Notes under the pieces: model-generated | Seen by the model: the letters and a program-made list of their open reading frames with translations, nothing else | The model's database searches: none | Told to the model about the DNA's origin: nothing | In this document: positions 29,638 to 44,074 of the stretch, in pieces | Numbering within the stretch: position 1 is the first letter of the stretch | Layout of the letters: each line of letters begins with the position of its first letter | Translations under genes and position numbers: made by a program | NCBI RefSeq assembly: GCF_002934625.1 | Contig: NZ_PTJD01000006.1 | Span: 1-64,000 of the forward strand | From: Kineococcus xinjiangensis | GTDB lineage: Bacteria; Actinomycetota; Actinomycetes; Actinomycetales; Kineococcaceae | DNA length: 64,000 nt | Reading direction: 5' to 3'

Positions 29638-30528
29638 TCAGCGCAGGTTGGCTTCGAGCGTGGAGTCCCGCACGTCCACGACCTCGGGCGCCGCAGCGGC
29701 CACGGGGGCCGCGGCGCGCGCCAGCAGGGCGCGCCGGCCCTGGGACGGGATGCGGGCGGGCAGCTGCACGCCGGGACGGCAGCGCTCGACGATCAGGGCG
29801 GTCAGCACGCGGAAGCCGTCGCGGAAGGTGTTGAGGTTGCTCTCGCCGTGGAGGCGGTCGAACTCGAAGCTGGGCACCTCGCGGATCGCCAGCTTGGCCT
29901 TGGCGATCCGGGTGTTGATGAGCGTCTCGATCTCGAAGCCGTCGCCCCAGCGCTTCTCGTCGACACGCTCACCGGAGGCGTCGAGCTCCAGGGCGGGCAG
30001 GCAGTCGACCCAGAAGGCGTTGTAGCCGTAGCAGAGGTCGCTGTAGCGGGTCCCGAAGAGGATGTTGGCCGTGGTGTTGAGGAACCAGTTGCCGGCCTTG
30101 CGCAGGCGGGTGATGTCGCTGCTGCCGCCGCCGGGGGCGAAGCGGGTGCCCTTGGCGAAGTCGGCACCGGAGGTGAGGGCCGCGACGAACCTGGGGATCT
30201 CGCGGGGGTCGGCGGAGCCGTCCGCGTCGAGCATGACGACGATGTCGCCGGTGACGGCGGCGAAGCCGCAGGCCATGGCGTTGCCCTTGCCGCGACGGTT
30301 CTGCAGCACGATGCGCACGTCGGGGCGCAGCGCCCGGGCGGTCTCGATGGTGCCGTCACTGCTGCGCCCGTCCACGACCACGACCTCGTGGATGTCCTCG
30401 GGGATCAGCGCGAACACGTGCGGCAGGTTCGCCGCCTCGTTGTAGGTCGGAACCACGATGCTGACCCTCGGCGCGGCCGAAGCGGCGCCGGGACCGTCAC
30501 TGACGTCCACGATGTTGCGTTCGGTCAT
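29638..30528 (-). CDS. GT2 glycosyltransferase, dolichol-phosphate-mannosyltransferase-like
   Basis: Probable inverting sugar transferase using a nucleotide sugar; the polyprenyl-phosphate acceptor is an inference from the DPM1-like subfamily. The 296-residue protein has the GT2 start VSIVVPTYNEAANLP (22-36), VVVDGRSSDGT (51-60) and the metal-binding DAD at 101-103 (VVMLDADGSADP). It ends with GDGFEIETLINTRI and FDRLHGESNLNTFRDG. No C-terminal membrane helices, so it is the soluble type. ATG at 30528 is preceded by GGGGGAAG; upstream frame is not GT-like. Divergent from the next GT gene, with its own promoter. Confidence 0.9.
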   Translation of the reverse strand: MTERNIVDVSDGPGAASAAPRVSIVVPTYNEAANLPHVFALIPEDIHEVVVVDGRSSDGTIETARALRPDVRIVLQNRRGKGNAMACGFAAVTGDIVVMLDADGSADPREIPRFVAALTSGADFAKGTRFAPGGGSSDITRLRKAGNWFLNTTANILFGTRYSDLCYGYNAFWVDCLPALELDASGERVDEKRWGDGFEIETLINTRIAKAKLAIREVPSFEFDRLHGESNLNTFRDGFRVLTALIVERCRPGVQLPARIPSQGRRALLARAAAPVAAAAPEVVDVRDSTLEANLR

Positions 30529-30670
30529 GCTTCCCCCAGGTGTCGCTGCTGCTCGGCCATCCCCACCCGAGCGCAGCCGGACCCCCAGGTCGGCAGACCT
30601 CCCTGCACTCGGTCCAGCAAGACCCGCTCGAGGGTCGCTCACACCGACGTGAGGCCGAGAATGTGTTGGA

Positions 30671-30951: not shown

Positions 30952-31956
30952 ATGCCGACGCAGCCCGGAGCGCACCCGGCCACCGCCGACGAGAACGCTC
31001 CCGCTCCGGCGTGCAGTGTCGTCATCGCCGCGCACGACGAGGGCCGCTGGCCCCTGCTGGAGCGCGCGGTCCGCTCGGCGCTCGAGCAGGACGGCGTAGC
31101 CGTGCAGCTCGTCGTCGCGATCGACAACAACCGCGCCCTCCTCGACCGGGCGCGCGCCGAGCTGGCCGGCGCCACGGTCGTCCTCAACGAGGGTCAGCGG
31201 GGAGCCTCCACGACCCGCAACGCCGGGGCCGCGGCGGCCACGGGCGAGTACCTGGCGTTCCTCGACGACGACGCAGCGGCCACCGACGCGACCTGGCTGC
31301 GGCGGCTCCTCCAGCCGCTGGTCTCCGACCCGGCGGTCTGCGGCGTCGGCGGCGGGGTGCTGCCGGACTGGCACACCGGCCGCCCGCCGTGGTTCCCCAT
31401 GGAGTTCGGCTGGGTCGTGGGCGCCTCCTACACGGGGATGCCGGAGTCCGCCGCTCCCGTGCGCAACGTGTGGAGCGAGAACATGGCCGTCCGCTCCGCC
31501 GACTTCCGCGCCGTCGGCGGCTTCGACGAGGGCTTCGGGAAGGTCGGCGAGGCCTCGCGCCCCGAGGACACGGAGCTGTGCATGCGCGTGCAGGCCGCCG
31601 CGGGGGGCCACTGGCTCTACGCACCGGACGCGCTGGTGGTGCACGCGGTCCCGGCGGAGCGCTCGACCGTCTCCTTCTTCCTGCGGCGCTGCTGGATGGA
31701 GGGGATCGGCAAGGCCGGGCTCGCCCGGATCGCCGGTGAGCAGGAGAGCCTCACCGCGGAACGCGCCTACACCACCCGGGTGCTGCCGGCCGGGATGCTC
31801 CGCGGCGCCGCGGAGGCGGTGCGCGGGGACCTGTGGGGGCTCGCGCGCTCGGCGCTGATCGTGGCCGGCACGGTCGTGGCGGGCTCGGGCTTCGTGGTGG
31901 AGCGCCGGCGGATCGGGCGCCGCTCCACCCGCCGGCCCGCGCTCGCCGCGCGCTGA
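30952..31956 (+). CDS. GT2 family glycosyltransferase
   Basis: Probable cytoplasmic-face sugar transferase for a surface polysaccharide. The 334-residue protein has CSVVIAAHDEG at 21-31, the conserved QRGASTTRNAGAAAATGEYLAFLDDD with the DDD metal site at 105-107 and EDTELCMRVQAAGG-type acceptor motif (RPEDTELCMRV near 203). A C-terminal hydrophobic segment around 290-312 may anchor it to the membrane. It is the first of two plus-strand GT genes; the next starts 10 bases after its stop, so they form an operon. Donor and acceptor sugars cannot be told from sequence. Confidence 0.9.
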   Translation: MPTQPGAHPATADENAPAPACSVVIAAHDEGRWPLLERAVRSALEQDGVAVQLVVAIDNNRALLDRARAELAGATVVLNEGQRGASTTRNAGAAAATGEYLAFLDDDAAATDATWLRRLLQPLVSDPAVCGVGGGVLPDWHTGRPPWFPMEFGWVVGASYTGMPESAAPVRNVWSENMAVRSADFRAVGGFDEGFGKVGEASRPEDTELCMRVQAAAGGHWLYAPDALVVHAVPAERSTVSFFLRRCWMEGIGKAGLARIAGEQESLTAERAYTTRVLPAGMLRGAAEAVRGDLWGLARSALIVAGTVVAGSGFVVERRRIGRRSTRRPALAAR

Positions 31957-31966
31957 GGAGGCGACC

Positions 31967-33409
31967 ATGACCGGCACTGAGCTCCCCACCGCCCAGGCCC
32001 GCCCCCGGGACGCGTCGCGGGCGGGTCGCCTGATCGGCGTCCCGGCCGCCTTCGAGCCGGCCCGCATCGTCGAGGTCGACGTCTCGCAGCCGCTGCCGGC
32101 CGTCGCGGCGGCCGAGGCGGGCGAGCCCCAGCCGGTGTGCGTGGTCGTGCGCCTGTGCGGGCAGCCCGTCGGGATGGTCCTGCTCCCGGGTCCGTGCGCA
32201 CCGGCCGCGCTGGCGGAGGCCGTCGACGGCGAGCTGCGGCCCGCGCTCGCCGACCTCGCGCCCGCCCACGGCCTCGCGCCGACGGCGCTGACGGCGAGCG
32301 GGCTCCCCCACCCGTCCTGTCCCGTGCGGGACCACCGCGAGGCGGTGCGTGGCAGCGGGCCCCGGATCACGGTCGTCGTCTGCACCCGCGAGCGGCCGGA
32401 GTCGCTGCAGCGGTGCCTCGACAGCATCGCGGCGCTCGACTACCACGACCTGGAGATCCTGGTCGTGGACAACGCCCCGCGCACCGAGGCGACGCGCGAG
32501 CTGTGCGCCGCCGCCGCGCGCTCCGTCCCGCTGCGGTACGTGCGGGAACCCGCTGCGGGCCTCTCCCGCGCCCGGAACACGGCGATCCGCGAGGCCTCCG
32601 GGGAGGTCATCGCCTTCCTCGACGACGACGAGCGCGCGGACCCGGACTGGCTGGTGGCCCTCGCCGCCGAGTTCCAGGACCCCCGGGTGGGTGTCGTCTC
32701 GGGGCTGGTGCTCCCCGCGGAGCTCCAGACGCAGGCGCAGGCCATGTTCGAGACGTTCGGCGGCCACAGCAAGGGCCGCGGCTTCGCCCGCGACGTCTTC
32801 GACGAGGACTACCAGCGCCGGGTCCAGTCACCGCTCTACCCGCGCCCCGCGTTCGGCGTCGGCGCGAACATGGCCTTCCGGGTGGGGGCCCTGCACGCGA
32901 TCGACGGGTTCGACCCCCACCTCGGCGCGGGCTCCCCCACGAAGGGCGCCGAGGACACCGCCGCCATCACCGAGGTCATGCTGGCCGGCTGGACCGCCGT
33001 GTACGCCCCCGACGCCGTCACGTGGCACTACCACCGCCGTGACGACAACGCGCTGCACGAGCAGCTGGACGGGTACCAGCGCGGGCTGGGCGCCTTCTAC
33101 GTCTCCCTGCTGCGGCGCAGGCCCTCCAGAGCGCTGGCCATGCTGAAGCTGCCGCTGCTCGCCTTCGCCGACACCCGGTCGGCATCCGCCGCCGGCGCAT
33201 CCACGGGGGCCGACGCACCCGCGGGAGCGGCCGACGCCGCAGCCGCCGGGGCGCCCGACGCCGCGCGCTCGCCGACGTCACCGGCGAGCCTGCTGCAGAT
33301 CGCCCGCGGTGCGGGGATCTACCTGCGCGCCGCCGCGCGCGAGCCGCGGGGCCCTCGGCTGGTCAGCGCTGCAGGCTCTCGATCCGCACCGAGTCGACGT
33401 AGACGCTGA
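31967..33409 (+). CDS. GT2 family glycosyltransferase with extra N-terminal domain
   Basis: The 480-residue protein carries a GT2 domain from about 132 (ITVVVCTRERPESLQRCLDS) with the DDD metal site at 219-221 (IAFLDDDERADPDWL). A glycine-rich acceptor loop and KGAEDTAAITEVMLAGW follow. Residues 1-125 form a separate domain I cannot name, containing ARIVEVDVSQPLP and VVRLCGQPVGMVLLP. An Ala-rich linker (about 404-432) precedes the basic C-terminus. ATG preceded by AGGAGG. Its last 47 bases overlap the convergent GH16 gene, so either the tail or the overlap is unusual. Confidence 0.88.
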   Translation: MTGTELPTAQARPRDASRAGRLIGVPAAFEPARIVEVDVSQPLPAVAAAEAGEPQPVCVVVRLCGQPVGMVLLPGPCAPAALAEAVDGELRPALADLAPAHGLAPTALTASGLPHPSCPVRDHREAVRGSGPRITVVVCTRERPESLQRCLDSIAALDYHDLEILVVDNAPRTEATRELCAAAARSVPLRYVREPAAGLSRARNTAIREASGEVIAFLDDDERADPDWLVALAAEFQDPRVGVVSGLVLPAELQTQAQAMFETFGGHSKGRGFARDVFDEDYQRRVQSPLYPRPAFGVGANMAFRVGALHAIDGFDPHLGAGSPTKGAEDTAAITEVMLAGWTAVYAPDAVTWHYHRRDDNALHEQLDGYQRGLGAFYVSLLRRRPSRALAMLKLPLLAFADTRSASAAGASTGADAPAGAADAAAAGAPDAARSPTSPASLLQIARGAGIYLRAAAREPRGPRLVSAAGSRSAPSRRRR

Positions 33410-34199
33410 CCTGCGAGGGGGTCGAGTCCGCGACGGGACGGAACCAGGTCGTGCCCTTGACCCAGGGTTCCGTCTGCAGCGCCAGGCGCATGGGCTGGCC
33501 GGGCACCCGGGCGTCGGCGACCGTGGCCCAGACCCGGCCGTCGATCAGGTACTTGATCTGACCGGGGGTCCACTCCACCGCGTAGTCGTGCCACTGGGTG
33601 GAGTCGATCGCCGTCTCGTGGTGCACCCTCTTGCCGTCCGCGAAGTGCGCGGTGGACGACATCATCCGGCGGTCGGCGCCGTTGTCCTCGGCGAAGTCGA
33701 TCTCCGGCGGCCACCTGTTGTCGCCGGGCCAGAGCAGGGCGACCATCGTCACGCCCTGACCGCGCTCCGCCCGCGCCCGCACGGTCCAGCGCCCGTAGGC
33801 CAGGGTGGTGCGCTGCCCGACCCCCGCGCCGCGCCAGATCCCGTCCGGCCCCTTCCGCGAGGTCAGGACGAGAGCGCCGTCCGCGATCCGCACCGCCGTG
33901 GAGTCGAACTCCGCGCCGGACGCCTTCGAGACACCGCCGTAGCGCCACCACAGGCGGTCGTCGAACCTGCCGCCGAAGTCCTCCACGAGGACGGGGCGCC
34001 ACCTGTGCGCTGACGCCACCGCAGATGTCCGCTTCTTCCTCGTGGCGAGCTTGCGGACGGGAAGGTCCGCGGCCGCCTGGGGCACCGCGGTCGTGCGCGC
34101 GGGGACGGGCGCCGCGGCGGCGCTCACCCAGCTCGCCGACGCGAGCAGGAGCGACAGCGCGGCAGCGGCCGCGGCGCGCCGGGTGAAGGAGGTGTGCAC
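33363..34199 (-). CDS. Secreted GH16 glycoside hydrolase (no malectin domain)
   Basis: Predicted secreted endo-glycanase of the beta-jelly-roll family 16. The 278-residue protein has a signal peptide (basic MHTSFTRRAA, hydrophobic 9-22, likely cleavage near 29 after Ala) and a ~40-residue basic linker. The GH16 domain runs from 68 to the end with the catalytic EIDFAE at 166-171 (nucleophile Glu166, acid/base Glu171). It is paralogous to the two plus-strand GH16 genes but lacks their malectin domains. Substrate is likely a beta-1,3 or beta-1,4 glucan or galactan, from family knowledge. GTG start. Confidence 0.9.
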   Translation of the reverse strand: MHTSFTRRAAAAAALSLLLASASWVSAAAAPVPARTTAVPQAAADLPVRKLATRKKRTSAVASAHRWRPVLVEDFGGRFDDRLWWRYGGVSKASGAEFDSTAVRIADGALVLTSRKGPDGIWRGAGVGQRTTLAYGRWTVRARAERGQGVTMVALLWPGDNRWPPEIDFAEDNGADRRMMSSTAHFADGKRVHHETAIDSTQWHDYAVEWTPGQIKYLIDGRVWATVADARVPGQPMRLALQTEPWVKGTTWFRPVADSTPSQVSVYVDSVRIESLQR

Positions 34200-34283
34200 G
34201 CACCCCCATCGACGACCCCCGGAGGCCTCTTGAGGATCATGGTGTCCGGCCCGCCCGGACGGAGCAGCCCGGCCGGGACGTCG

Positions 34284-35174
34284 TCACCGTGCGTTGCGCA
34301 GGGCGACCAGGCGGCCCACCCGCTGGACTCCGAACATGGCGACCGACAGGGCTGCGACCGACGCGTCGACCTGCCGCCGGCGCACCGCCTGCGCCGTCTG
34401 CGCGAGCGTGGCCAGCGCCCCGCCGCGCGGCGCGGCCGCCCCGGCGACGGGCGCGGCGGCGGCAGGCCCCACCATGTGGCCCGCGGGCTCCGCCCCGTAC
34501 CGGTCGAGCTCCACGGACGACTTGCCGTAGCGGTACCACTGCTCGACGAGGTCGCGGAGGCGGTCCCGCGGCTGCCAGTGGACCAGCGTGCGCCTGTCGA
34601 TGCCCAACCGGCCGAGGCCGGCCTGCTGGATCCGCCAGCACAGGTCGGCGTCCCCGCCGCTGCGCACGGGACGGAATCCACCGACCTCGCGGAACGCCGA
34701 GGCCAGCACCCCGAGGTTGCACGTCGGGTAGTACGGCAGCCGGCTGCCGCCGGTGGTGGCCTCCAGGCGGAACGGCTGCTGGTGGGCGGCGACGCGGCTG
34801 GCCAGCGACCGGCCGCCGACCGCCTCCACCACGGAGCAGCTGAGCGCGGTGCCGGGCTCGGCGAGCAGACGCCGGTGCGCGTCCAGCCAGCCGGGCAGGG
34901 GCCTGCAGCGGACGTCGAGGAAGACGAGGTGGTCGGCGGTCGACGCGGTGGCCGCCTCCTGCCGCGCCGCGTACGGGCCCCGCGGCTGCGCCGAGGAGAG
35001 CACGCGCGCACCGGCGCGGCGGGCGACCTCCGCGGTGTCGTCGGTGCTGGCGTCGTCGACCACGACGATCGAGTCGCCCCCGGCCAGCTGGGGGCGGACC
35101 CGCTCGAGGCAGGCCCCGAGGAGCCCGGCGGCATTGCGGACGGGGATGATCACGTCGATGGACCGGTCGGTCAC
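34284..35174 (-). CDS. GT2 family glycosyltransferase
   Basis: Probable sugar transferase of 296 residues. It has IDVIIPVRNAAGLLG at the start, VVVDDASTDDTAEVARRAGA near 37-56 and HLVFLDVRCRPLPGWLDAH, where DVR takes the place of the usual DXD metal motif. It also has GGDADLCWRIQQAGLGRL as the acceptor-side motif. A weak hydrophobic stretch near the C-terminus could touch the membrane. GTG start at 35174 has AGGAGG 9 bases upstream, just after the flippase stop, so it is the third gene of the minus-strand membrane protein-flippase-GT operon. Confidence 0.88.
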   Translation of the reverse strand: MTDRSIDVIIPVRNAAGLLGACLERVRPQLAGGDSIVVVDDASTDDTAEVARRAGARVLSSAQPRGPYAARQEAATASTADHLVFLDVRCRPLPGWLDAHRRLLAEPGTALSCSVVEAVGGRSLASRVAAHQQPFRLEATTGGSRLPYYPTCNLGVLASAFREVGGFRPVRSGGDADLCWRIQQAGLGRLGIDRRTLVHWQPRDRLRDLVEQWYRYGKSSVELDRYGAEPAGHMVGPAAAAPVAGAAAPRGGALATLAQTAQAVRRRQVDASVAALSVAMFGVQRVGRLVALRNAR

Positions 35175-35187
35175 TGGTCGTGTCCTC

Positions 35188-36558
35188 CTAGCGGGCGCGA
35201 CGGGCACGGACGAACGAGACGACGTCCCGGACGTCACTGGGACGCGGGACGACCATGCGGAGCACGGACAGCCCGAAGAGGTGCCGGGCGAAGAGCAGGC
35301 ACAGGACGGACATGACCGCGTAGGTCACGCAGCTCACCACCGCGGCGCCGACCCCGCCGAAGACCGGGACGAGCACGAAGATGAGCGCCACGTTGATCAC
35401 GCAGGCGATCGCCAGGGCCGCGCTGCGCAGGCCGGGCCGGTTGCGCGCCAGGAGGATGGCGCCGAGCGTCGAGCCCGGGGTGTTGAGCACCGCGGCCAGG
35501 AGCAGCAGCTGCAGCATCGGGGTCGCCTCCGCGAACTCCTCCCCGAACGCCAGGCGCACCAGGTAGGGCGCCACCAGCGCCAGTCCGGCGGAGACGCACG
35601 CCGTGGCCAGCAGGGTCAGCCGCGCCGCCTGCTCGGCCCGCCGGTCGTCGCGGTCCTTGGCGTCGGCCGCCGTGATGACCTCGCGGGTGGCGGAGCTGAC
35701 GACGAAGGGGATCTCCCCGATGGCGACGGCGGCGGCGTACAGCCCGAGCTCGCGGGCACCGACCAGCGGCGCCATGAGCACCTGGTCGATCCGGGCCACG
35801 ATGATCCCGCTGAGCCCACCCGCCCACGTCTTGGTCCCGTACCTGAGGAGCAGCCCCGAGGCGTTGGGGGTCGGGGCCGTCGACGGCTCGGCCCGCAGGC
35901 GGCGGAGGAAGCGGACGTAGACGAGGCCGCCCAGGATCGGGCACCCCAGATAGACGGCGGTGGCGACGGGCAGGGTCAGGACACCGCTCAGGGCGAAGAC
36001 GACGACCAGGACCAGCCGCGCGCCGTTGTTGAGGTACTTCTCGCCGTTGACGAGACCCCACCGGTTGCGCCCCGCCGCCACCCCGCGGATGGCACCGACG
36101 GCCAGCGCGCCGGGCAGGGACAGACCGCCGTAGGCGATCAGCTGCGTGACCTCCGGCTCGCCGCTGCTGATGACGGGGGCGAGGAGGAACAGCAGCCCGG
36201 CCATCAGCACGCCGATGCCGATCGACATCATCACCACCTGCCGCAGCGCCACCCGGGTGTGCATGCGGGCGCTGGCGACGAAGTAGGTGGCCGCCTCCGG
36301 AAGCCCCACGGTCGCGGCGAGGGTCAGCAGGAGGGTGGGGGCGGTGATGGCCGCGAACTCGCCGCGCCCGGTGACGCCGAGCGCCTGGGCGAGGACGGGT
36401 GCGGTGATGATGCCGATGAGCGGGCTCGCCAGGTTGCCGGCGACCGTCCCCGCGACGTCCCGCATGAAGGAGCGGGGACGCGGCGCCTCGGGGGCCTGCG
36501 CCGGCGCCTCCGCGGGCTCCCCGTCGCGCTCGCCGCCGTGCTGAGCCGTGCCCGTCAC
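35188..36558 (-). CDS. Oligosaccharide flippase (MOP/Wzx-like)
   Basis: Predicted lipid-linked oligosaccharide flippase of the polysaccharide-transport branch of the MOP superfamily. The 456-residue protein has 12-14 hydrophobic helices starting at about residue 35 (MRDVAGTVAGNLASPLIGIITAPVLAQALG). Typical features are the ALGVTGRGEFAAI motif after helix 1, GVAAGRNRWGLVNGEKYLNNGARL in the middle and GAILLARNRPGLRSAALAI late. The Pro/Glu-rich first 30 residues are cytoplasmic. GTG start overlaps the stop of the polytopic membrane protein gene by 4 bases, so the two are translated together. Confidence 0.87.
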   Translation of the reverse strand: MTGTAQHGGERDGEPAEAPAQAPEAPRPRSFMRDVAGTVAGNLASPLIGIITAPVLAQALGVTGRGEFAAITAPTLLLTLAATVGLPEAATYFVASARMHTRVALRQVVMMSIGIGVLMAGLLFLLAPVISSGEPEVTQLIAYGGLSLPGALAVGAIRGVAAGRNRWGLVNGEKYLNNGARLVLVVVFALSGVLTLPVATAVYLGCPILGGLVYVRFLRRLRAEPSTAPTPNASGLLLRYGTKTWAGGLSGIIVARIDQVLMAPLVGARELGLYAAAVAIGEIPFVVSSATREVITAADAKDRDDRRAEQAARLTLLATACVSAGLALVAPYLVRLAFGEEFAEATPMLQLLLLAAVLNTPGSTLGAILLARNRPGLRSAALAIACVINVALIFVLVPVFGGVGAAVVSCVTYAVMSVLCLLFARHLFGLSVLRMVVPRPSDVRDVVSFVRARRAR

Positions 36559-38777
36559 GAGCGCAGGACCTGCCAGACCGATGCGCCGTCCTGCCGGAAG
36601 ACGAGGCGCAGGCCCGGCTGCTGGTCGAGCTCCCGCTGCAGCGCGTAGAAGCGCTCCGGCTGCATCGCGCCGAAGTACTCCAGGTAGCCCGCCTGGCTGG
36701 GCGTGGCCACGAGGTACGGGTTGCCCTCCTGGGTCCGCAGGTACTCGACGACGGCGGCCGCGTCGGGGCTGCTCTGGAACTCCTCGGACACGAACGCGGT
36801 CGGGCTCGTCTCCGACTGGAGGGGGTAGTCGAGGTAGCGCTCGTCGATGCGGCTCGGGGAGTTGGGGGCCAGGCCGATCATCTCGGTGCCCGGGGCCGCG
36901 TTGGCGTAGAACCACTCGGCCGCCGCGACGTCGGCGGGCACCACCCGGTTCACCCGCTCCTGGCCCAGGTACGCGGGCAGGAAGAGCGCCGTCAGCACGG
37001 CCGCCCCCGCCACCGTCGCGACGGGGCGCAGGCCGGCACCGAGGCGCTCGAGGCCGGCGACGGCGGCCCGGGCCACGGAGAAGGCGAGGAACGGCAGCGC
37101 GTACAGGTAGGTGCGGAGCTGGCCCTCGCCGCCGTAGTCCTGCGCCAGGAGCACGAGCGCCGGGGCGAAGGCACCGACGAGCGCGATCCGCGACGCCACG
37201 GAGCGCCGGCCGGTGAGCAGGGCCCAGCCGCCGCCCACCGCGAACATGCCGAAGTAGAGGACGTAGACGGTGGCCCGGCGGAAGACCACCCCCTCCATCG
37301 GCTCGTAGCGCGAGAGCACGTCCGCGGAGGAGCCGTCGAGCGGGTTGAAGCTGAACAGCGAGTACGGGCTCTGCGCGAGGTATGGCCACGCGAGCGCGAG
37401 CCAGGCCACCTCCAGGACCGCGAAGGCGACGACCAGCCACCACGCCCGCCAGCGCAGGAGCGCGGTCAGGACGAAGAGGACGAGCAGGACGACCACCGGC
37501 GTGAGCTGGTGCGTCGTCATCGTGCCGATCCAGATCAGCGCGGCACCGGCGGCGAGCAGCGCCCGCTCGCGGCCGGAGCTGCTGCTGTCGCGGTGGAGGG
37601 CCCCGCCCGCGCGGTGGGCGCGGACCAGGACCGCGATGAGCACGATGCCGAGGAAGAAGGCGAGCGGCTGCGGCGCGAAGTAGTCCTGCCCCACCCAGAT
37701 CGTCAGCGCGAAGACGAGCGTGGCCAGCCGGACGGTGCGGGCGTCGCGGGTCAGCGACCGCGCCAGGTACCACACCGCCGACGCGTTGAGGATCTCGAAG
37801 AAGGGCGGTGCCCAGCGGGCCGCGGTGCGGACGTCGAGCGAGGCCGCGGACGTGAACCACTCGGCCGCCGCGAAGAATCCGGGCCAGTTGTAGTAGATGT
37901 CGCGCAGGCGGGGCAGTTCGTTCGCGGCGCGGATGTACTCCACGACGCCGATGTGCTTGAACGTCCAGGTGTAGCGCGGCATGTCGTACGCGACGGCGGG
38001 CGTCGCGTGCAGGATGAGGACGATGCCCGCGATCGCGGCCCAGAAGGCCCCGCGGTGCCTCGCCGGGTGCAGGGCGGTCACCGCCGCGACGGCGACGCAG
38101 ATCGCCAGGGCGACGTACCAGAGGAGCGGCACCGCGGCGAGGAGGCCGTAGCCGTTGAGCCGGTCCAGGTCCACGCCGCCGAGGGACAGCGCCCACAGGG
38201 CGAGCGCAACGGCCACGCCCACCGCGCCTGCCCACGTCGTCCACCGCGCCGTCGGGCCACCGCGGCCGTCGGCGGCGGCACCGGCCCCGCCGGGTGCGGG
38301 ACGGACCTCGCGCGGCGGGGCGCCGTCGTGGTGCGCGGTGTCGAGGTGGGGGGCGTCGTGGTGCGCGGCGCCGCCCACGCCGACCGCCTGGCGGGCCGCC
38401 ACCGGGCGCAGGGCGGCGTGGTCACCGTGCGGCGCCTCCCCTGCCGCGTCCGGCGAGGGGCGGCGCAGGAGGACGGCCGCAGCGGCGGCCAGGGCCGTCC
38501 CGAGGGTGATCGCCGCGGGTGCGTCCAGGCCGAGCGCGATGGCCAGCTGGGACAGCGCGGCGAGCCCGGCCAGCCCGAGCGCGGCGTTGACCGCTCCGGG
38601 GAGGAGGTGGTCGTTGCGGCCGCCCGCGACGTAGCGCACGGCGGCGCCGAGCAGCCACGCCCAGAACGCCGCGACGGCGACCGCCCGCAGGGGCGCTGGG
38701 GCTGGCAGGACCAGCGAGAGGGCGACCAGGCCGAGAGCGGTCGCCACGGCGAGGCGCGGCCACGAGCTGGGGGTCAT
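36555..38777 (-). CDS. Large polytopic membrane protein (polymerase or GT-C candidate)
   Basis: A 740-residue integral membrane protein with about 13-15 predicted helices. After the fourth helix a His/Asp-rich hydrophilic loop (about 115-180, with HGDH, AAHHDAPHLDTAHHD) precedes further helices. The motifs YDMPRYTWTFKHIGVVEYIR and DIYYNWPGFFAAAEWF resemble the acidic extracytoplasmic loops of GT-C enzymes. The last ~125 residues are soluble (AAEWFYANAAPGTEMIGLAPNSP onward) and should face outside. I cannot place it in a named family; Wzy-like polymerase or GT-C transferase are the main options. First gene of the minus-strand operon with the flippase and a GT. Confidence 0.75.
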   Translation of the reverse strand: MTPSSWPRLAVATALGLVALSLVLPAPAPLRAVAVAAFWAWLLGAAVRYVAGGRNDHLLPGAVNAALGLAGLAALSQLAIALGLDAPAAITLGTALAAAAAVLLRRPSPDAAGEAPHGDHAALRPVAARQAVGVGGAAHHDAPHLDTAHHDGAPPREVRPAPGGAGAAADGRGGPTARWTTWAGAVGVAVALALWALSLGGVDLDRLNGYGLLAAVPLLWYVALAICVAVAAVTALHPARHRGAFWAAIAGIVLILHATPAVAYDMPRYTWTFKHIGVVEYIRAANELPRLRDIYYNWPGFFAAAEWFTSAASLDVRTAARWAPPFFEILNASAVWYLARSLTRDARTVRLATLVFALTIWVGQDYFAPQPLAFFLGIVLIAVLVRAHRAGGALHRDSSSSGRERALLAAGAALIWIGTMTTHQLTPVVVLLVLFVLTALLRWRAWWLVVAFAVLEVAWLALAWPYLAQSPYSLFSFNPLDGSSADVLSRYEPMEGVVFRRATVYVLYFGMFAVGGGWALLTGRRSVASRIALVGAFAPALVLLAQDYGGEGQLRTYLYALPFLAFSVARAAVAGLERLGAGLRPVATVAGAAVLTALFLPAYLGQERVNRVVPADVAAAEWFYANAAPGTEMIGLAPNSPSRIDERYLDYPLQSETSPTAFVSEEFQSSPDAAAVVEYLRTQEGNPYLVATPSQAGYLEYFGAMQPERFYALQRELDQQPGLRLVFRQDGASVWQVLRS

Positions 38778-38835
38778 CGGTCAAGGCTCCCGTCATGCTG
38801 TCGCCCGGACAGCAGGGTGCAGTCCCGGCGCCCAG

Positions 38836-38894
38836 GGTCAGCGTGCTGACCTCGGGCCCGGGCTGCGCTGCCGGGCTGCCGGTCCACGGACCGG
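38836..38894 (-). repeat. Two 16-base dyads in the leader of the membrane protein gene
   Basis: GGTCAGC/GCTGACC (38836-38851) and CCGGTCC/GGACCGG (38879-38894) are both 7-base perfect inverted repeats with 2-base loops, 27 bases apart. They lie 59-117 bases upstream of the start of the 740-residue membrane protein gene, in a 427-base divergent gap (38778-39204). They could be operators or leader RNA hairpins. The rest of the gap shows only the -10 box near 39192. Confidence 0.35.
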
Positions 38895-39191
38895 GCCTGC
38901 TCGTTCTGTGGGCTCGTCGACTGCGGTGAAGCGGCCCCGATTGTGGCACGAGCCCGGCGCCCGGCCCGAAGGCCCATGATCGTGTCGAGGCGCCGGGCCA
39001 CCGCCGAGACCGCGTGGCACCGTCGCTACGGTCCGCAACACCCGCGCTCCGTTCGGGTGAAGCTGTTCGAGCGAGGCCGACTCCCCCACCGTCCCCCGAG
39101 AGCACGAATCACGCTCGCCGATCACGAAACGGCCTCCCCGGGTCCCGTCGAACCGGTCCACAAGCCGTCCGGGGGGCGGTTCTCCGGCGGG

Positions 39192-39197
39192 TACGCT
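39192..39197 (+). promoter_or_regulatory. Candidate -10 box for a leaderless GT gene
   Basis: TACGCT ends 7 bases before the ATG at 39205. There is no RBS in the gap. The -35 region is GC-rich and not recognisable. Confidence 0.45.
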
Positions 39198-39204
39198 CGC
39201 GTCC

Positions 39205-39996
39205 ATGCTGAACGGCCTCATCTGCGTCATCGCCGCCTACGGGGAGGTGCCGATGACGCAGAGCGTCGTGCGCGCGTGCTCGCTGGAGCTGGCGCCCGGC
39301 CACACGGTCGTCGTCGACAACAAGGGCGACTACGAGGCCATCGGCGACGAAGTCGTCCTGTCCCGCGGGCAGAAGCTCGGCTGGCTGGGCGGATCGAACG
39401 TCGGGATGGCGCACGCCTTCGAGGTGCTGCACGCGTCGGCCGTCGTCCTGATGAACAACGACGTCACGCTCTCCCGCGGCTTCTTCGCCGGCATGGCAGC
39501 CGCCGCCGCCAGCTCCGAGCAGGTCGGGGTGGTCGCCCCCTGCTACGACGACAGCTTCAAGAGCCAGCACCGGTACTGGACGGGCCCGGCGGCGCGGTTC
39601 CCCGCCCAGCAGCGCGACGAGGAGGTCCGCCTCGTCGACGGGACGAGCATGCTCATCACCCGGCGCTGCCACGAGCTGGTCGGGCCGCTCGACGCGCTGC
39701 ACTTCGGCCGCTACGGCTGGGGCGCGACAGCCGACTACTGCGCCCGGACCTCCGCGGTCGGCCTGAAGGTCCTCGTGACCCGCAGGGCGTACCTGAACCA
39801 CGCGCGGGCCGTGACGGCGGGTGCGCTGTCCAACCGCTACTACAGCGACGCCGAGGCGGAGATGGAAGCCGGGCTCTGCGCGAAGTACGGCCCGGACTGG
39901 CGCCACAGCCTCGGCTACGGGCGCGACGGGTCCGGAACGGGCACGCTGCTCGACAGGGCCTACTACGCCGTCCGCCGCCTGAGCAGGCGGTGCTGA
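39205..39996 (+). CDS. GT2-like glycosyltransferase
   Basis: Probable sugar transferase of 263 residues, short for GT2. It has LICVIAAYGE at the N-terminus, HTVVVDNKGDYEAI, the loop LGWLGGSNVGMAHAFEVL and VVLMNNDVTLSRGF, where NND plays the role of DXD as in rhamnosyltransferase-like GT2 enzymes. It also has FGRYGWGATADYCARTSAVGLKVLV for the acceptor side. The ATG appears leaderless. Its stop is followed 4 bases later by the GTG/ATG region of the malectin-GH16 gene, so these are co-transcribed, tying a transferase to a hydrolase. Confidence 0.82.
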   Translation: MLNGLICVIAAYGEVPMTQSVVRACSLELAPGHTVVVDNKGDYEAIGDEVVLSRGQKLGWLGGSNVGMAHAFEVLHASAVVLMNNDVTLSRGFFAGMAAAAASSEQVGVVAPCYDDSFKSQHRYWTGPAARFPAQQRDEEVRLVDGTSMLITRRCHELVGPLDALHFGRYGWGATADYCARTSAVGLKVLVTRRAYLNHARAVTAGALSNRYYSDAEAEMEAGLCAKYGPDWRHSLGYGRDGSGTGTLLDRAYYAVRRLSRRC

Positions 39997-40000
39997 GCGG

Positions 40001-41416
40001 ATGCCGGAGGCACCGCGGGGACAGACGCCGGCGCGCTCGGGCGAGGAGGACGACGAGCAGCGGTCGCTCCGGGGAACCGGCGCGGACCGCGACGCCTCCC
40101 CCGATGCCGGCACGGCCCCCCCGGAGTCCGCGGCCCGGTCCATGACCCCTCCGGACCGCGGGGCGGTGACGCGCGAGGGCTCCGCCCCGCGCCCGTCCCG
40201 CTGGATCCTCGCGGCGATCGCGGTCGCCGCGGTCGCCGCGCTGGTGATCGCCCTCGTGGTGGGCCGCGGCGGCGAGGATCCGCCCGCCGGTGTGGACCCG
40301 GGCGTCGAGGACCCCCGCATCGCGATCAACGCCGGGGGCGAGGAGGTCACCGCCGGGGACCTCTCCTACGGGGCCGACGCCCACGCCGAGGGCGGGCGCA
40401 CGTCCAGCGCGACGGTGTCGAGCGACCGGGAGGACGCCGAGGTCTTCTCCGATGTCCGCGTGGGGGCGACGGGCTACAGCGTGCCCGTTCCCGACGGGAC
40501 GTACGAGGTCACGTTCCAGACGCTGGAGAACTACTGGACCGAGCCCGGCCGGCGCGTCTTCGACGTCACGCTGGAGGGGCTCGAGGTCCTCGCCGACTTC
40601 GACCCGTTCCTGGCGGCCGGTGGCAAGGACGAACCGATCACCCGCACCCTCCGCACCACCGTGACCGACGGCAGCATCGACCTGGAGTTCGACGCGGACC
40701 AGGACCAGTCGATCATCGCCGGCCTCGTCGTCACTCCCCAGGACGGCGGGCTGGCGCGGACCGCGGGCACCGCCTGGGAGCAGGTCTTCTTCGACGACTT
40801 CGGCTCGGGCCTCGACGACGAGCACTGGTGGCGCTACGGCGGAATCGCCACCGCCTCGGGCTCCCCCTACTCCCAGGAGGGCGTCGAGGTCGTCGACGGG
40901 AACCTGGTCCTGACCTCCCGCAGGGGTGCCGACGGCGTCTGGCGCGGCGCCGGTGTCGGCTCGCGCCTGAACCAGACGTACGGACGCTGGACGGTGCGCG
41001 CGCGCGGAGAGCGCGGCCACGGGATCACGATGGTCTTCCTGCTGTGGCCGACCATCGGGAACTGGCCGCCGGAGATCGACTTCGCCGAGGACAACGCCGA
41101 GGACCGGGACATGATGTCGGCCACGGTGCACTTCGAGAACGGCGTCAAGGTCCACCACGAGCGGGAGATCGACTCCACCCAGTGGCACGACTACACCGTG
41201 GAGTGGACCCCCGGCGAGACCCGCTTCCTGATCGACGGTGAGCTCTGGGCCACCGTGGTGGACGGGCGCGTGCCCTCGGAGCCGATGCGCCTGGGCCTGC
41301 AGTCGGAGGCGTGGCTGGAGGGCACGGACTTCTTCCACCCGATCGACGAGACCACCCCCGCCGAGGTCCGGGTCTTCATCGACTCCGTCACCGTCGAGAC
41401 CCGCGCGGGCTCCTGA
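40001..41416 (+). CDS. Membrane-anchored malectin-GH16 glycoside hydrolase
   Basis: The 471-residue protein has a 66-residue acidic, disordered cytoplasmic tail, one transmembrane helix (about 68-88), a malectin-type sugar-binding domain (106-246: IAINAGGEE, TYEVTFQTLENYW, RRVFDVTLEG) and a GH16 domain (262-468). The catalytic EIDFAE is at 358-363. Topology should be a type II anchor with both domains outside. Malectin binds gluco-oligosaccharides in eukaryotes, so a glucan-like ligand is plausible but inferred. It follows the GT gene by 4 bases and precedes the two-malectin paralog by 274 bases. Confidence 0.9.
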   Translation: MPEAPRGQTPARSGEEDDEQRSLRGTGADRDASPDAGTAPPESAARSMTPPDRGAVTREGSAPRPSRWILAAIAVAAVAALVIALVVGRGGEDPPAGVDPGVEDPRIAINAGGEEVTAGDLSYGADAHAEGGRTSSATVSSDREDAEVFSDVRVGATGYSVPVPDGTYEVTFQTLENYWTEPGRRVFDVTLEGLEVLADFDPFLAAGGKDEPITRTLRTTVTDGSIDLEFDADQDQSIIAGLVVTPQDGGLARTAGTAWEQVFFDDFGSGLDDEHWWRYGGIATASGSPYSQEGVEVVDGNLVLTSRRGADGVWRGAGVGSRLNQTYGRWTVRARGERGHGITMVFLLWPTIGNWPPEIDFAEDNAEDRDMMSATVHFENGVKVHHEREIDSTQWHDYTVEWTPGETRFLIDGELWATVVDGRVPSEPMRLGLQSEAWLEGTDFFHPIDETTPAEVRVFIDSVTVETRAGS

Positions 41417-41690
41417 CCGGCGCCCGCCGGGCGGCGGGCGGCGGTCCTCGACCTTCCCCGAGCGGTTGGACCACCCGCTCCGGGGCCCGCACAGCGCCCT
41501 GGACCGGCCCTCTCGTCACACGGAGTCATGGCCGAAAGGTGCGCATCCTCCCGTTCGGCGGAATTGGCCCCGCGAATAGCAGCCCTGAGTTTTCCGGGAG
41601 AGTCCTTCGAGTGCCTTCGCTCAAGAGCGGCATGAGCCGGGACGAGGAATGTAGGGAAGGGTCCCCCGGTCTCTCACGAAACGGTCCATC

Positions 41691-43355
41691 ATGCGCTTGC
41701 TCGGTTTCTTCACCACGGCGGTGGCCACCACCGTCGCCACTTCCTGCTTGATCGTCCAGCCGGTCGCAGCCACCACCAGCACGAGCGGCCCCATCGCCCT
41801 CAACGCCGGTGGCGGGGCCGTCACCGCCTCGGGTGTCGCCTACTCCGCAGACGCCTTCAACCTCGGCGGCTGGGGCTCTACCGCGACGCTTCCCACGGGC
41901 ACCACCGACGCCGCCGTGCACTCGAAGGTGCGGGTCGGCTCGAGCGGCTACAGCGTCCCCGTGACCAACGGCACGTACCACGTCACGCTCCAGACGGTGG
42001 AGAACTACTGGACCGAGGCCGGCAAGCGGGTCTTCGACGTGAACCTCGAGGGCAAGCAGGTCCTCGCGGCCTTCGACCCGTTCGCCGCGGCGGGCGGGAA
42101 GGGCGTGCCGATCAACCGCACGTTCGAGGTGAGCGTGGCCGACGGGAAGCTCGACCTCGGGCTGAAGGCCATCGTCAACAACACCATCGTCTCCGGCCTG
42201 GTCATCGCCCCGTACACCCCGGCCCCGACGACCGGCTCCACCGAGGACGTCAACTCCACGATCGCGGTCAACACCGGCGGCGGGTTCACCACCACCTCCG
42301 GCATCACGTACATGGCCGACAGCTACGGCAACGGCGGACGCAACGCCACCGCCGCGGTCCCGGCCGGCACCACCGACTTCGAGGTCTACTCCAAGATTCG
42401 CGTCGGATCGACCGGTTACACGGTGCCCGTGACCAACGGCACCTACGAGGTCCGGTTCCAGACGCTGGAGAACTACTGGAGCGCCCCCGGCAAGCGTGTC
42501 TTCGACGTCAGCCTGGAGGGCAAGCCCGTCCTGACCGCGTTCGACCCCTTCGTCGCGGCCGGCGCCAAGAACACGCCGATCACCCGCACCTTCGAGGTCG
42601 GCGTCACCGACGGCTGGCTGAACCTCGGCCTGCACAGCCGCATCGACTCCACCGTGATCGCCGGCCTCGTCGTCATCCCGAAGGTGGCCGCCGGGACCGC
42701 CCCCGCGCCCTCCACGTTCAAGCTGCAGTCCTTCGAGGGCTTCGACAGCACCCTCAACGACACCATGTGGTGGCGCTACGGCGGTGTGGCCACCGCCTCC
42801 GGCTCCCCCTACGCCTCCTCCGGTGTCAGCGTCACCGGCGGCAACCTGGTCCTGACCTCCCGCAAGGGCACTGACGGTGTCTGGCGCGGCGCCGGTGTCG
42901 GTCACCGCGTGAACCAGACCTACGGGCGCTGGACGATGCGGGCCCGCGCCGAGAAGGGCCGCGGGATCACCATGGTGGCGCTGCTCTGGCCGACCGCCGG
43001 CGGCTGGCCGCCGGAGATCGACTTCGCCGAGGACAACGGCGGCGACCGCGACATGATGTCGGCCACGGCCCACTTCGCCGACCACACCCGCAAGCACTCC
43101 GAGACGGCGATCGACTCCACCCAGTGGCACGACTACGCCGTCGAGTGGACCCCCGGTCAGATCAAGTACCTGATCGACGGCAAGGTGTGGGCGGCCGTCG
43201 CCGACTCGCGGGTCCCGAGCCAGGCCATGCGCCTGGGCATCCAGTCGGAGGCGTGGGTCAAGGGCACGAACTGGATCTACCCGATCGACGCGACCACCCC
43301 CAGCCAGGTCCGCATCTACGTGGACTCCGTGAAGGTCGAGACGTTCCTCGGCTGA
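41691..43355 (+). CDS. Secreted GH16 hydrolase with two malectin domains
   Basis: The 554-residue protein has a signal peptide (MRLLGFFTTAVATTVATSCL, cleavage probably near Ala27) and two malectin-type domains (about 34-175 and 187-332). Each domain carries the NGTY and ENYW motifs and the (K/R)RVFDV-type strand. A GH16 domain (345-552) follows, with EIDFAE at 442-447. The Cys at 19 lies within the hydrophobic core and is not a convincing lipobox. It shares the IDSTQWHDY and VEWTPGQIKYLIDGK blocks with the other two GH16 proteins. The 274-base upstream gap shows no convincing promoter. A strong terminator follows it. Confidence 0.92.
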   Translation: MRLLGFFTTAVATTVATSCLIVQPVAATTSTSGPIALNAGGGAVTASGVAYSADAFNLGGWGSTATLPTGTTDAAVHSKVRVGSSGYSVPVTNGTYHVTLQTVENYWTEAGKRVFDVNLEGKQVLAAFDPFAAAGGKGVPINRTFEVSVADGKLDLGLKAIVNNTIVSGLVIAPYTPAPTTGSTEDVNSTIAVNTGGGFTTTSGITYMADSYGNGGRNATAAVPAGTTDFEVYSKIRVGSTGYTVPVTNGTYEVRFQTLENYWSAPGKRVFDVSLEGKPVLTAFDPFVAAGAKNTPITRTFEVGVTDGWLNLGLHSRIDSTVIAGLVVIPKVAAGTAPAPSTFKLQSFEGFDSTLNDTMWWRYGGVATASGSPYASSGVSVTGGNLVLTSRKGTDGVWRGAGVGHRVNQTYGRWTMRARAEKGRGITMVALLWPTAGGWPPEIDFAEDNGGDRDMMSATAHFADHTRKHSETAIDSTQWHDYAVEWTPGQIKYLIDGKVWAAVADSRVPSQAMRLGIQSEAWVKGTNWIYPIDATTPSQVRIYVDSVKVETFLG

Positions 43356-43438
43356 TGACCTGCCGGTGATCCACCGCCGCACCGGCCTCCGCTGACGCCC
43401 CGCCCCCCGCGGGACGGCAGCGGGGCCGCTGCGGCGAC

Positions 43439-43483
43439 GACGGCCAGGGTGTGAGCAGCAGCGCTGCTCACACCCTGGCCGTC
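43439..43483. terminator. Strong bidirectional terminator (21-bp perfect hairpin)
   Basis: A perfect 21-base inverted repeat (43439-43459 and 43463-43483) with a 3-base loop lies 84 bases after the stop of the GH16 gene and 79 bases from the end of the convergent membrane protein gene. It marks the right end of the polysaccharide region. Confidence 0.85.
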
Positions 43484-43501
43484 TCCGTTCCCGCCGGCAC
43501 C

Positions 43502-43559
43502 CCGCACCGGTTCGAACCCCGCACGACTGCGAACACCGCACGGTTTCGAATCCCGTACG
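43502..43559. repeat. Pair of 24-base direct repeats around TTCGAA
   Basis: Two copies at 43502-43525 and 43536-43559 match at 20 of 24 positions and share CCGCAC, TTCGAA and CCCG. They lie between the strong terminator and the end of the membrane protein gene. The core looks like a tRNA T-loop, but no tRNA fold is possible. Confidence 0.4.
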
Positions 43560-43561
43560 GT

Positions 43562-44074
43562 TCAGGTCTCGCGCGGCGCCTCCAGTTCGTCCTGCGCCCT
43601 CCGCGACCGGGACCCCTCCTGCACCCACTCCGCGACGGACTCGCCGAACGTCCGCACGAACACCACGCCGACCAGCAGCAGCGGCCAGGACAGCGCCACG
43701 CCCCAGGCGCGCGGCAGCACCCGCTGCCCGTCGACGCCGGCGGGCAGCAGTGCCGCGGTGGCCACGGCGAGGGCCGCTCCCAGGAGTGCACCCAGCACCG
43801 CGGCGGCCAGCGTGCGCAGCGGCCGGGTGCCGGGGCGGCGCAGCACACGCAGCGCGGCGGCGGAGCCGAGCAGTCCGCCGAGGACGGCCAGGGCCCCGTC
43901 GCGGGCCGCGTCGAGGGATCCCCGGGTCAGGTGCGGCTCGCCGCCCAGCCAGCCGGGGGGGTCGTGCGTGATCGCCCACCAGGCCGCTCCGACGAGCGGT
44001 CCCGCGCCCACCTGCACCAGGAGGACGGTGCGGGCCGCGCGCGCCGGACGGGCCACCCGGGCGCGCCGCATCAC
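43562..44074 (-). CDS. Hypothetical membrane protein downstream of dnaE
   Basis: A 170-residue protein with about four hydrophobic helices (near 17-36, 62-80, 85-110 and 125-145), a basic N-terminus MMRRARVARPARAARTV and a hydrophilic tail. I do not recognise the family. It starts 19 bases after the dnaE stop on the same strand, so it is probably the last gene of that transcript. No motif suggests function. The conserved HDPPGW loop between helices 1 and 2 faces out or in depending on topology, which the basic N-terminus predicts to be cytoplasm first. Confidence 0.65.
   Translation of the reverse strand: MMRRARVARPARAARTVLLVQVGAGPLVGAAWWAITHDPPGWLGGEPHLTRGSLDAARDGALAVLGGLLGSAAALRVLRRPGTRPLRTLAAAVLGALLGAALAVATAALLPAGVDGQRVLPRAWGVALSWPLLLVGVVFVRTFGESVAEWVQEGSRSRRAQDELEAPRET

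Follow-up and report, generated by a model that had tools for sequence, protein, structure and literature searches.

A GH16 paralogue series with zero, one and two malectin domains at a predicted exopolysaccharide locus of Kineococcus xinjiangensis

The GH16 genes and their domains

The window analysed here is a stretch of 64,000 nucleotides of DNA (~75% GC) from Kineococcus xinjiangensis (Kineococcaceae), taken from NCBI RefSeq assembly GCF_002934625.1, contig NZ_PTJD01000006.1, positions 1 to 64,000 of the forward strand. It contains three genes for GH16 proteins, referred to as g33, g40 and g41, which lie at the ends of two divergently oriented gene runs; these runs are part of a polysaccharide-assembly locus situated between hisD and dnaE. 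The proteins share a GH16 domain and differ in the number of malectin domains (CBM57 is the CAZy name for malectin; PMC7783096) and in predicted placement, and they probably process the cell's own exopolysaccharide (EPS).

Open frames were present for all three genes (Table 1). A first-pass annotation made from the sequence alone had described three GH16 enzymes sharing the motifs EIDFAE and IDSTQWHDY and forming a zero, one and two malectin series. This description was borne out: both motifs were found in g33, g40 and g41, and Pfam gave malectin counts of 0, 1 and 2, respectively. The GH16 scores were above the Pfam cut-off of 22 bits in all three proteins (56.7–63.3 bits), with 56.7 bits (E 2.7e-15) for g40 and 58.6 bits (E 6.9e-16) for g41. 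For malectin, for which the cut-off is 23 bits, g40 scored 70.3 bits (E 2.4e-19) and g41 157.2 bits over two stretches (E 4.8e-46); scored stretch by stretch, the three malectin stretches gave 73.3–86.7 bits, each above the cut-off. The catalytic motif of GH16 was reported to be EXDXXE or EXDXE (Viborg 2019), and EIDFAE was intact in four of four paralogues, namely the three of the window and a copy on contig C4 described below. The pairwise identities were 58.5, 64.1 and 65.9% among the three window GH16 domains, and 54.0, 54.7 and 58.7% among the three malectin units, all far beyond chance. The NG86 ratio of non-synonymous to synonymous substitution rates (dN/dS) was below 1 in all six pairs of the four paralogues (0.39–0.76), the upper values being just mildly low.

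The different cell placement described in the first-pass annotation was also recovered. By hydropathy scan, a strong single membrane helix was found only in g40 among the three, behind a 68-residue N-terminus, and g40 is thus predicted to be membrane-anchored. Signal-peptide-like stretches without a strong membrane helix were found at the N-termini of g33 and g41; the signal peptides of these two proteins and of the C4 paralogue were judged by eye. A promoter and terminator scan of 38700–43700 detected nothing.

Table 1. Features of the GH16 genes and of the surrounding locus, in window positions
Feature	Coordinates	Strand	Basis
g33, GH16 without binding module, signal-like N-terminus	33363..34199	-	Pfam GH16 63.3 bits, E 2.5e-17
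g40, N-terminally anchored, one malectin and GH16	40001..41416	+	Pfam
g40 single membrane helix, residues 69–87	40205..40261	+	mean hydropathy 3.17
g40 malectin domain	40301..40756	+	Pfam; fold matches
g40 GH16 domain with EIDFAE	40760..41413	+	Pfam; fold matches
g41, signal-like N-terminus, two malectin and GH16	41691..43355	+	Pfam
g41 malectin domain 1	41775..42230	+	Pfam stretch
g41 malectin domain 2	42243..42698	+	Pfam stretch
g41 GH16 domain	42702..43352	+	inside stretch common with C4 paralogue (42701–43366)
GT2 glycosyltransferase, conserved in sister loci	29638..30642	-	Pfam
GT2 glycosyltransferase	30952..31956	+	Pfam
GT2 glycosyltransferase	31967..33409	+	Pfam
GT2 glycosyltransferase, 84 bp upstream of g33	34284..35237	-	Pfam
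Polysaccharide flippase, Wzx-like, PF01943; start approximate	35188..36555	-	Pfam 64.1 bits
GT-C-like helix-rich membrane protein, 740 residues	36555..38777	-	fold matches of low-confidence model
Probable GT2-like transferase, opens plus-strand run	39205..39996	+	weak NCBIfam match

A fourth copy and exchange of the front module

A fourth close paralogue was found on contig C4 of the same genome, with a signal-like N-terminus and Pfam matches to NPCBM (132.3 bits) and GH16 (59.8 bits). Its GH16 domain was 84.8% identical to that of g41, and the DNA of the two genes was 90.1% identical over 667 columns, from the linker (42701) to 43366. This identity ended 11 bases past the stop codon and was otherwise restricted to the catalytic domain; no other DNA match between the g41 gene region and the C4 stretch was found at E 1e-3. 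Because the DNA identity is limited to the catalytic domain, this domain either moved or stayed and the front module was exchanged. The front modules of g41 and the C4 copy were therefore swapped.

The three window genes lie within the predicted EPS locus, and the C4 copy, judged by seven sizeable neighbours, lies outside such a locus. A fifth, distant GH16 with 31% identity to g33 was found at C3:37288-37635 (L107:8806-9747, plus strand), around which no further match to the polysaccharide genes of the window was detected in a 19-kb stretch. Pfam malectin gave three matches in the window's genome, all of them inside the window.

Phylogeny and rarity of the paralogues

In a tree of 48 GH16 domains, drawn from the window's genome and others, the four paralogues formed one genome-specific clade (100/100), within which the g41 and C4 copies paired (100/98). 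The rows of this tree exclude loci that duplicate genes already represented, though one gene still occurs twice. As the four copies form a 100/100 clade, the possibility that the window GH16s are unrelated look-alikes was ruled out. In a malectin tree of 30 domains, from which one stretch repeating another locus was left out, the three window units formed one clade (100/99), and their nearest relative was a protein from another family of the order (96/89; L122:3922-5469, plus strand). The separate trees suggested in the first-pass annotation thus placed neither the GH16 domains nor the malectin units in distant clades. Its proposal of duplication followed by gain or loss of malectin units stands as duplication with gain, loss or swap of modules, in accordance with the two clades and the DNA identity of g41 and the C4 copy; the restriction to malectin was too narrow, because the fourth copy carries NPCBM. 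A simple internal duplication of the g41 malectins was unsupported, since the best tree joined unit 2 to the g40 unit (94/57); the arrangement of the two g41 units as a sister pair was not rejected by the approximately unbiased (AU) test (p 0.417).

The GH16 clade of the window appears to be rare. With the window's genome counted, it was found in at least 2 of 198 genomes of the order and at least 12 of 394 genomes of the class at E <=1e-30, and in at least 3 of 396 genomes of the phylum at E <=1e-25; these counts are lower bounds, because at most 7–15 candidates per genome were scored in the wide searches. Multi-copy GH16 clades of their own were observed in three genomes (the window's genome, G064 and G633), and the front parts on related GH16 copies varied, being NPCBM, fn3, TIG or no Pfam domain.

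The surrounding polysaccharide-assembly locus

The two gene runs diverge from a 427-bp gap. The minus-strand run consists of the genes for the GT-C-like protein, the flippase and a GT2 transferase, with g33 as the final gene, and g40 begins 4 bp past the transferase that opens the plus-strand run. The latter spacing and that of 84 bp between transferase 34284 and g33 are both operon-like. The GT2 gene 31967–33409 and g33 meet tail to tail, their 3' ends sharing 47 bases. In genome G064, one frame (L036:6862-9222, minus strand) matches the transferases at 30952 and 31967 in different halves, and may encode a fused transferase. The 39205 protein matched an NCBIfam rhamnosyltransferase model with 21.9 bits, compared with a cut-off of 200.55, and no Pfam family. 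The flanks on the hisD side are hisD, a PhzF-like gene and a LON-domain gene; those on the other side are dnaE, rluD-like, lspA, ftsZ, ftsW-like, mraY-like and Mur-ligase genes. No sugar importer was found among ten locus proteins run through Pfam, two of which matched no family. Judged by the kinds of genes present, the product of the locus is probably an EPS.

The 36555–38777 protein matched neither a Pfam nor an NCBIfam family. The eight best fold matches of its model comprised DPY19, AftA, ArnT, PglB and archaeal oligosaccharyltransferase, which we take to be GT-C membrane transferases; the best E value was 7.7e-5, and three matches were at E <=0.001. A classical Wzy was rejected for this protein, as there was no family match and the best fold matches were GT-C enzymes instead. 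As a lead from this model, the protein may act either as a polymerase or as a transferase of lipid-linked sugars.

Co-occurrence of GH16 genes with the locus in related genomes

The family set comprised 12 genomes, including that of the window, and the GT-C-like protein was found in six of them. In these six, the Pfam GH16 counts (E 0.001) were 5 in the window's genome, 4 in G064, 2 in G032, 3 in G092, 4 in G134 and 5 in G078, and in the six genomes without the GT-C-like protein they were 0, 0, 1, 1, 0 and 0. The occurrence of two or more GH16 matches thus coincided with that of the GT-C-like protein (6/6 versus 0/6; Fisher two-sided p 0.0022, kinship ignored), and in every one of the six genomes with that protein two to four GH16 genes lay no more than 15 kb from its gene. 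The GH16 list of G064 was obtained by joining the Pfam matches with matches to the window profile, because Pfam gave no match for one of its three locus GH16s. In G032, the contig with the GH16 genes holds a fragment of the GT-C-like gene at the contig end, the larger part being on another contig.

The site between the hisD/LON-like genes and the dnaE/rluD-like/lspA genes was shared by the window's genome and G078 (on one contig, read as two stretches), and its hisD/LON side recurred at the locus of G092. The GH16s of the sister loci belong to other clades (~30–39% identity). GH16 genes thus appear to persist at the site, the enzymes themselves having diverged or been exchanged; such turnover would be expected of a glycanase that has to suit a polymer which itself changes. 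In two sister loci, one GH16 has the motif EIDFPD, in which the acid/base Glu is changed to Asp (L037:16498-17334 and L040:2740-3660, both on the minus strand), and other GH16s of these loci retain a final Glu. The EIDFPD proteins are possibly non-catalytic binding proteins or altered enzymes.

Malectin was detected at E 1e-12 in 21 of 248 genomes of the order, the window's genome counted; the profile used is best at finding relatives of the window units, and other malectin proteins may escape it. Malectin occurs in eight other genomes of the family, in each case on a stretch with a Wzz-like gene and two or more matches to GT2. The profiles for GT2, Wzx and Wzz were built from few sequences, and two of the eight sister loci had contributed to those for Wzz and GT2; without these source loci, the combination was found in 6/6 malectin stretches and 0/18 family controls (p 7.4e-6, kinship ignored). 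Over all genomes, a GT2 match was found in 14/22 malectin stretches compared with 2/20 controls, both positive controls being from G034, a genome in which the malectin genes themselves lack a neighbouring GT2 match. Round numbers were used to pick the 20 control stretches, several of them from one genome, and the malectin matches at G051:C146, G010:C224, G061 and G089 were left out of the neighbourhood test.

In seven of the eight sister malectin proteins a weak Pfam match to GH26 was observed (22.6–28.2 bits, cut-off 20.2), and the eighth (L117) showed malectin only. When the GH26 part of one sister protein was searched for in the window's genome, no match was obtained. In G051, which belongs to another family of the order, malectin is fused to a distant laminarinase-like GH16 (L120:7737-9257, minus strand); the contig is short and holds two GT2 matches. 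This fusion is independent of that in the window, and its presence rejected the idea that the malectin–GH16 fusion is unique to the window's genome. Malectin was also observed on long regions that looked beta-helix-like by eye (L119:8763-10283, minus strand; L121:1017-2690, plus strand; L122:3922-5469, plus strand); the L119 and L121 proteins gave no Pfam match besides malectin.

Fold model of g40 and the malectin ligand site

The 377 residues of g40 that remain once the anchor is removed were modelled with a pLDDT of 80.4 and a pTM of 0.65 from an alignment of 14 rows. The second half of the model resembled GH16 enzymes, among them 3iln (Z 22.6, 205 residues, rmsd 2.5). Residues 1–154 of the model matched residues 710–886 of the 6d8g chain (Z 20.6, 148 residues, rmsd 2.2), a part of a Bacteroides uniformis beta-glucuronidase which we take to be a malectin domain; malectin sequence similarity was seen by profile alignment in the related GH2 entries 8dhl and 6ed1. 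Foldseek also gave the plant receptor ectodomains FER and ANX1. For g40, the region that the first-pass annotation had read as malectin is hence predicted to fold as malectin and not as an unrelated domain.

The diglucose contacts of Xenopus malectin were reported to be Y67, Y89, Y116, F117 and D186 (PMC7783096). In all three window units, Y67 was replaced by Ala, Y89 by Val and F117 by Trp, Y116 was kept, and the position of D186 fell outside the aligned part of the malectin profile alignment. The register was deduced from the adjacent Tyr-Phe pair; with the spacing counted from there, residues 67 and 89 of the solved chain are both Tyr, as expected. In poplar malectins, only two of the five diglucose-contact residues are retained (PMC7783096). 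The window malectins therefore lack the full animal contact set, which bears on the ligand and not on family membership; because the site is kept in part only, diglucose binding is not to be assumed. The analogy with malectin of eukaryotic endoplasmic reticulum quality control, drawn in the first-pass annotation, is weak: Y116 is kept, but Y67 and Y89 are both replaced.

Function of the GH16 set

The best explanation, to which we assign a probability of roughly 0.6, is that g33, g40 and g41 act as GH16 endo-glycanases on the EPS of the cell itself and so process it, with malectin and NPCBM as targeting modules. It builds on the domain make-up, common descent, module swap, and co-occurrence and adjacency with the assembly locus that were observed; from these we infer catalysis, the substrate, the malectin ligand and the division of labour within the GH16 set. 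In the proposed mechanism, the GT2 enzymes, the flippase and the GT-C-like membrane protein would make and export the polymer, and the GH16 enzymes would cut it outside the cytoplasmic membrane, by which chain length and released amount would be set. One catalytic domain would have been copied several times and given different front modules, malectin being a module that would grip the cell's own polymer. With a signal peptide and no binding module, g33 would be a free enzyme; g40, with a membrane helix and one malectin, would be held at the export site; g41, with two malectins and a signal peptide, would probably be attached to polymer already made; and the fourth copy would use NPCBM as its front module. 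It is plausible, as the first-pass annotation had proposed, that the set processes the same polymer at three places, and the gene context points to the cell's own EPS rather than to external beta-glucans or beta-galactans.

Several observations weigh against this explanation. One of the two G032 GH16 matches was under the Pfam cut-off (20.3 versus 22 bits), and with the cut-off enforced the split is 5/6 versus 0/6; both G032 proteins matched the window GH16 profile (E 6.1e-18 and 3.6e-13). Two of the six genomes without the GT-C-like protein each hold one GH16. No transferase was found among seven sizeable neighbours of the C4 paralogue run through Pfam. The model of the GT-C-like protein was poor (pLDDT 55.5, pTM 0.63), being built from six sequences. 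The GT2 matches of the neighbourhood test were profile matches not confirmed singly with Pfam, and outside the family the malectin–GT2 link was weaker, with a GT2 match in 6/14 stretches. The best solved sequence relatives of g40 were beta-1,3-glucanases (E ~1e-6). Laminarinases, carrageenases (kappa-carrageenases) and mucin O-glycanases were tied in the fold comparison (Z ~21–22.6), and as the matches are tied across GH16 activities, the substrate is not readable from the fold.

The affinity to beta-1,3-glucanases would also suit a foraging role, in which the GH16 enzymes would feed the cell by breaking down beta-glucans or galactans of the environment, and malectin and NPCBM would be ordinary substrate-binding modules. 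The position of the C4 copy outside a polysaccharide locus and the presence of malectin on varied proteins of the order (GH26 enzymes and beta-helix-like proteins among them) are consistent with such a role. It is nevertheless unlikely, as the three window genes lie within a synthesis and export locus in which Pfam revealed no sugar importer among the ten proteins mentioned above, and two or more GH16 matches followed the GT-C-like protein through the family set. Some or all of the enzymes might instead be transglycosylases that re-join chains, with the anchored copy tethering new EPS to the envelope in the manner of plant xyloglucan endotransglycosylases (XETs) and fungal GH16 chitin-glucan transferases. 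GH16 includes transglycosylases (Viborg 2019) and g40 is membrane-anchored, but the fold comparison gave mainly hydrolases, and we regard this role as improbable. Neutral shuffling, in which multiplying GH16 copies acquire front domains of little functional meaning, would account for the many front parts on related copies (NPCBM, fn3, TIG, none) and for the three genomes with multi-copy clades of their own; it is opposed by the catalytic motif kept in every one of the four copies and by dN/dS values that are all below 1, if mildly so at the upper end, and appears very improbable.

Processing of the cell's own EPS could be part of a wider pattern. We tentatively suggest, as a possibility well short of an even chance, that malectin in this family is a self-polysaccharide recognition module gained by whichever glycanase a polymer locus uses (GH16 here, GH26 in the sister loci), and that malectin number and anchor type on copies of one catalytic domain tune the site of EPS cutting on the way out of the cell, be it membrane, matrix or medium. 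The repeated occurrence of malectin on predicted glycanases beside polysaccharide-assembly genes would give it a concrete bacterial role, the binding of the own polymer. The paralogue set, in which one catalytic domain is combined with zero, one or two malectins or NPCBM and is anchored or free, offers a natural experiment on module function.

Comparison with known systems

Most of what is known of malectin concerns glycoprotein quality control in eukaryotes and wall sensing in plants. A full-text search of one literature library gave no paper linking malectin with exopolysaccharide and polysaccharide biosynthesis, and none for the malectin domain with exopolysaccharide, glycosyltransferase and Actinobacteria; for malectin, GH16 and bacteria, the titles and abstract openings of the matches listed described no such system.

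A close counterpart by gene content is PrmQ, a GH16 of the Sphingomonas promonan EPS cluster, whose deletion led to dry, rugose colonies and which was predicted by its authors to cut promonan during secretion (PMC11340318). As in the window, the gene for this GH16 is clustered with those for GT2 transferases and a flippase, and PrmQ is described as exported; the likeness is one of gene kinds and description. The gene table of the promonan cluster gives one GH16 (and a GH10), whereas three paralogues with zero, one and two malectins and an NPCBM copy are found here.

In Sinorhizobium meliloti, a double mutant of ExoK and ExsH had no detectable low-molecular-weight succinoglycan (PMC4916376). 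These glycanases, which yield low-molecular-weight forms of the own EPS, are similar in the role proposed here, but the passages of that source on ExoK and ExsH make no mention of malectin. The window enzymes scored 26.4–32 bits with the ExoK model NF052392 of NCBIfam, far under its curated cut-off of 350, and are thus not ExoK.

The window enzymes share fold and family with GH16 laminarinases (3iln, 6jhj and others) and differ in sequence, most laminarinase rows of the fold comparison showing ~20–24% identity. Their malectin units have the fold and Pfam family of malectin/CBM57, including 6d8g, unlike animal malectin keeping the diglucose site in part only. In the sister malectin–GH26 proteins, too, malectin is joined to a predicted glycanase encoded among polysaccharide genes, but the enzyme is a GH26 and not a GH16, and the locus is a different one. 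Own-polymer glycanases at EPS loci are already known from PrmQ and ExoK; what is new is the malectin/NPCBM series on one catalytic domain, with one copy membrane-anchored.

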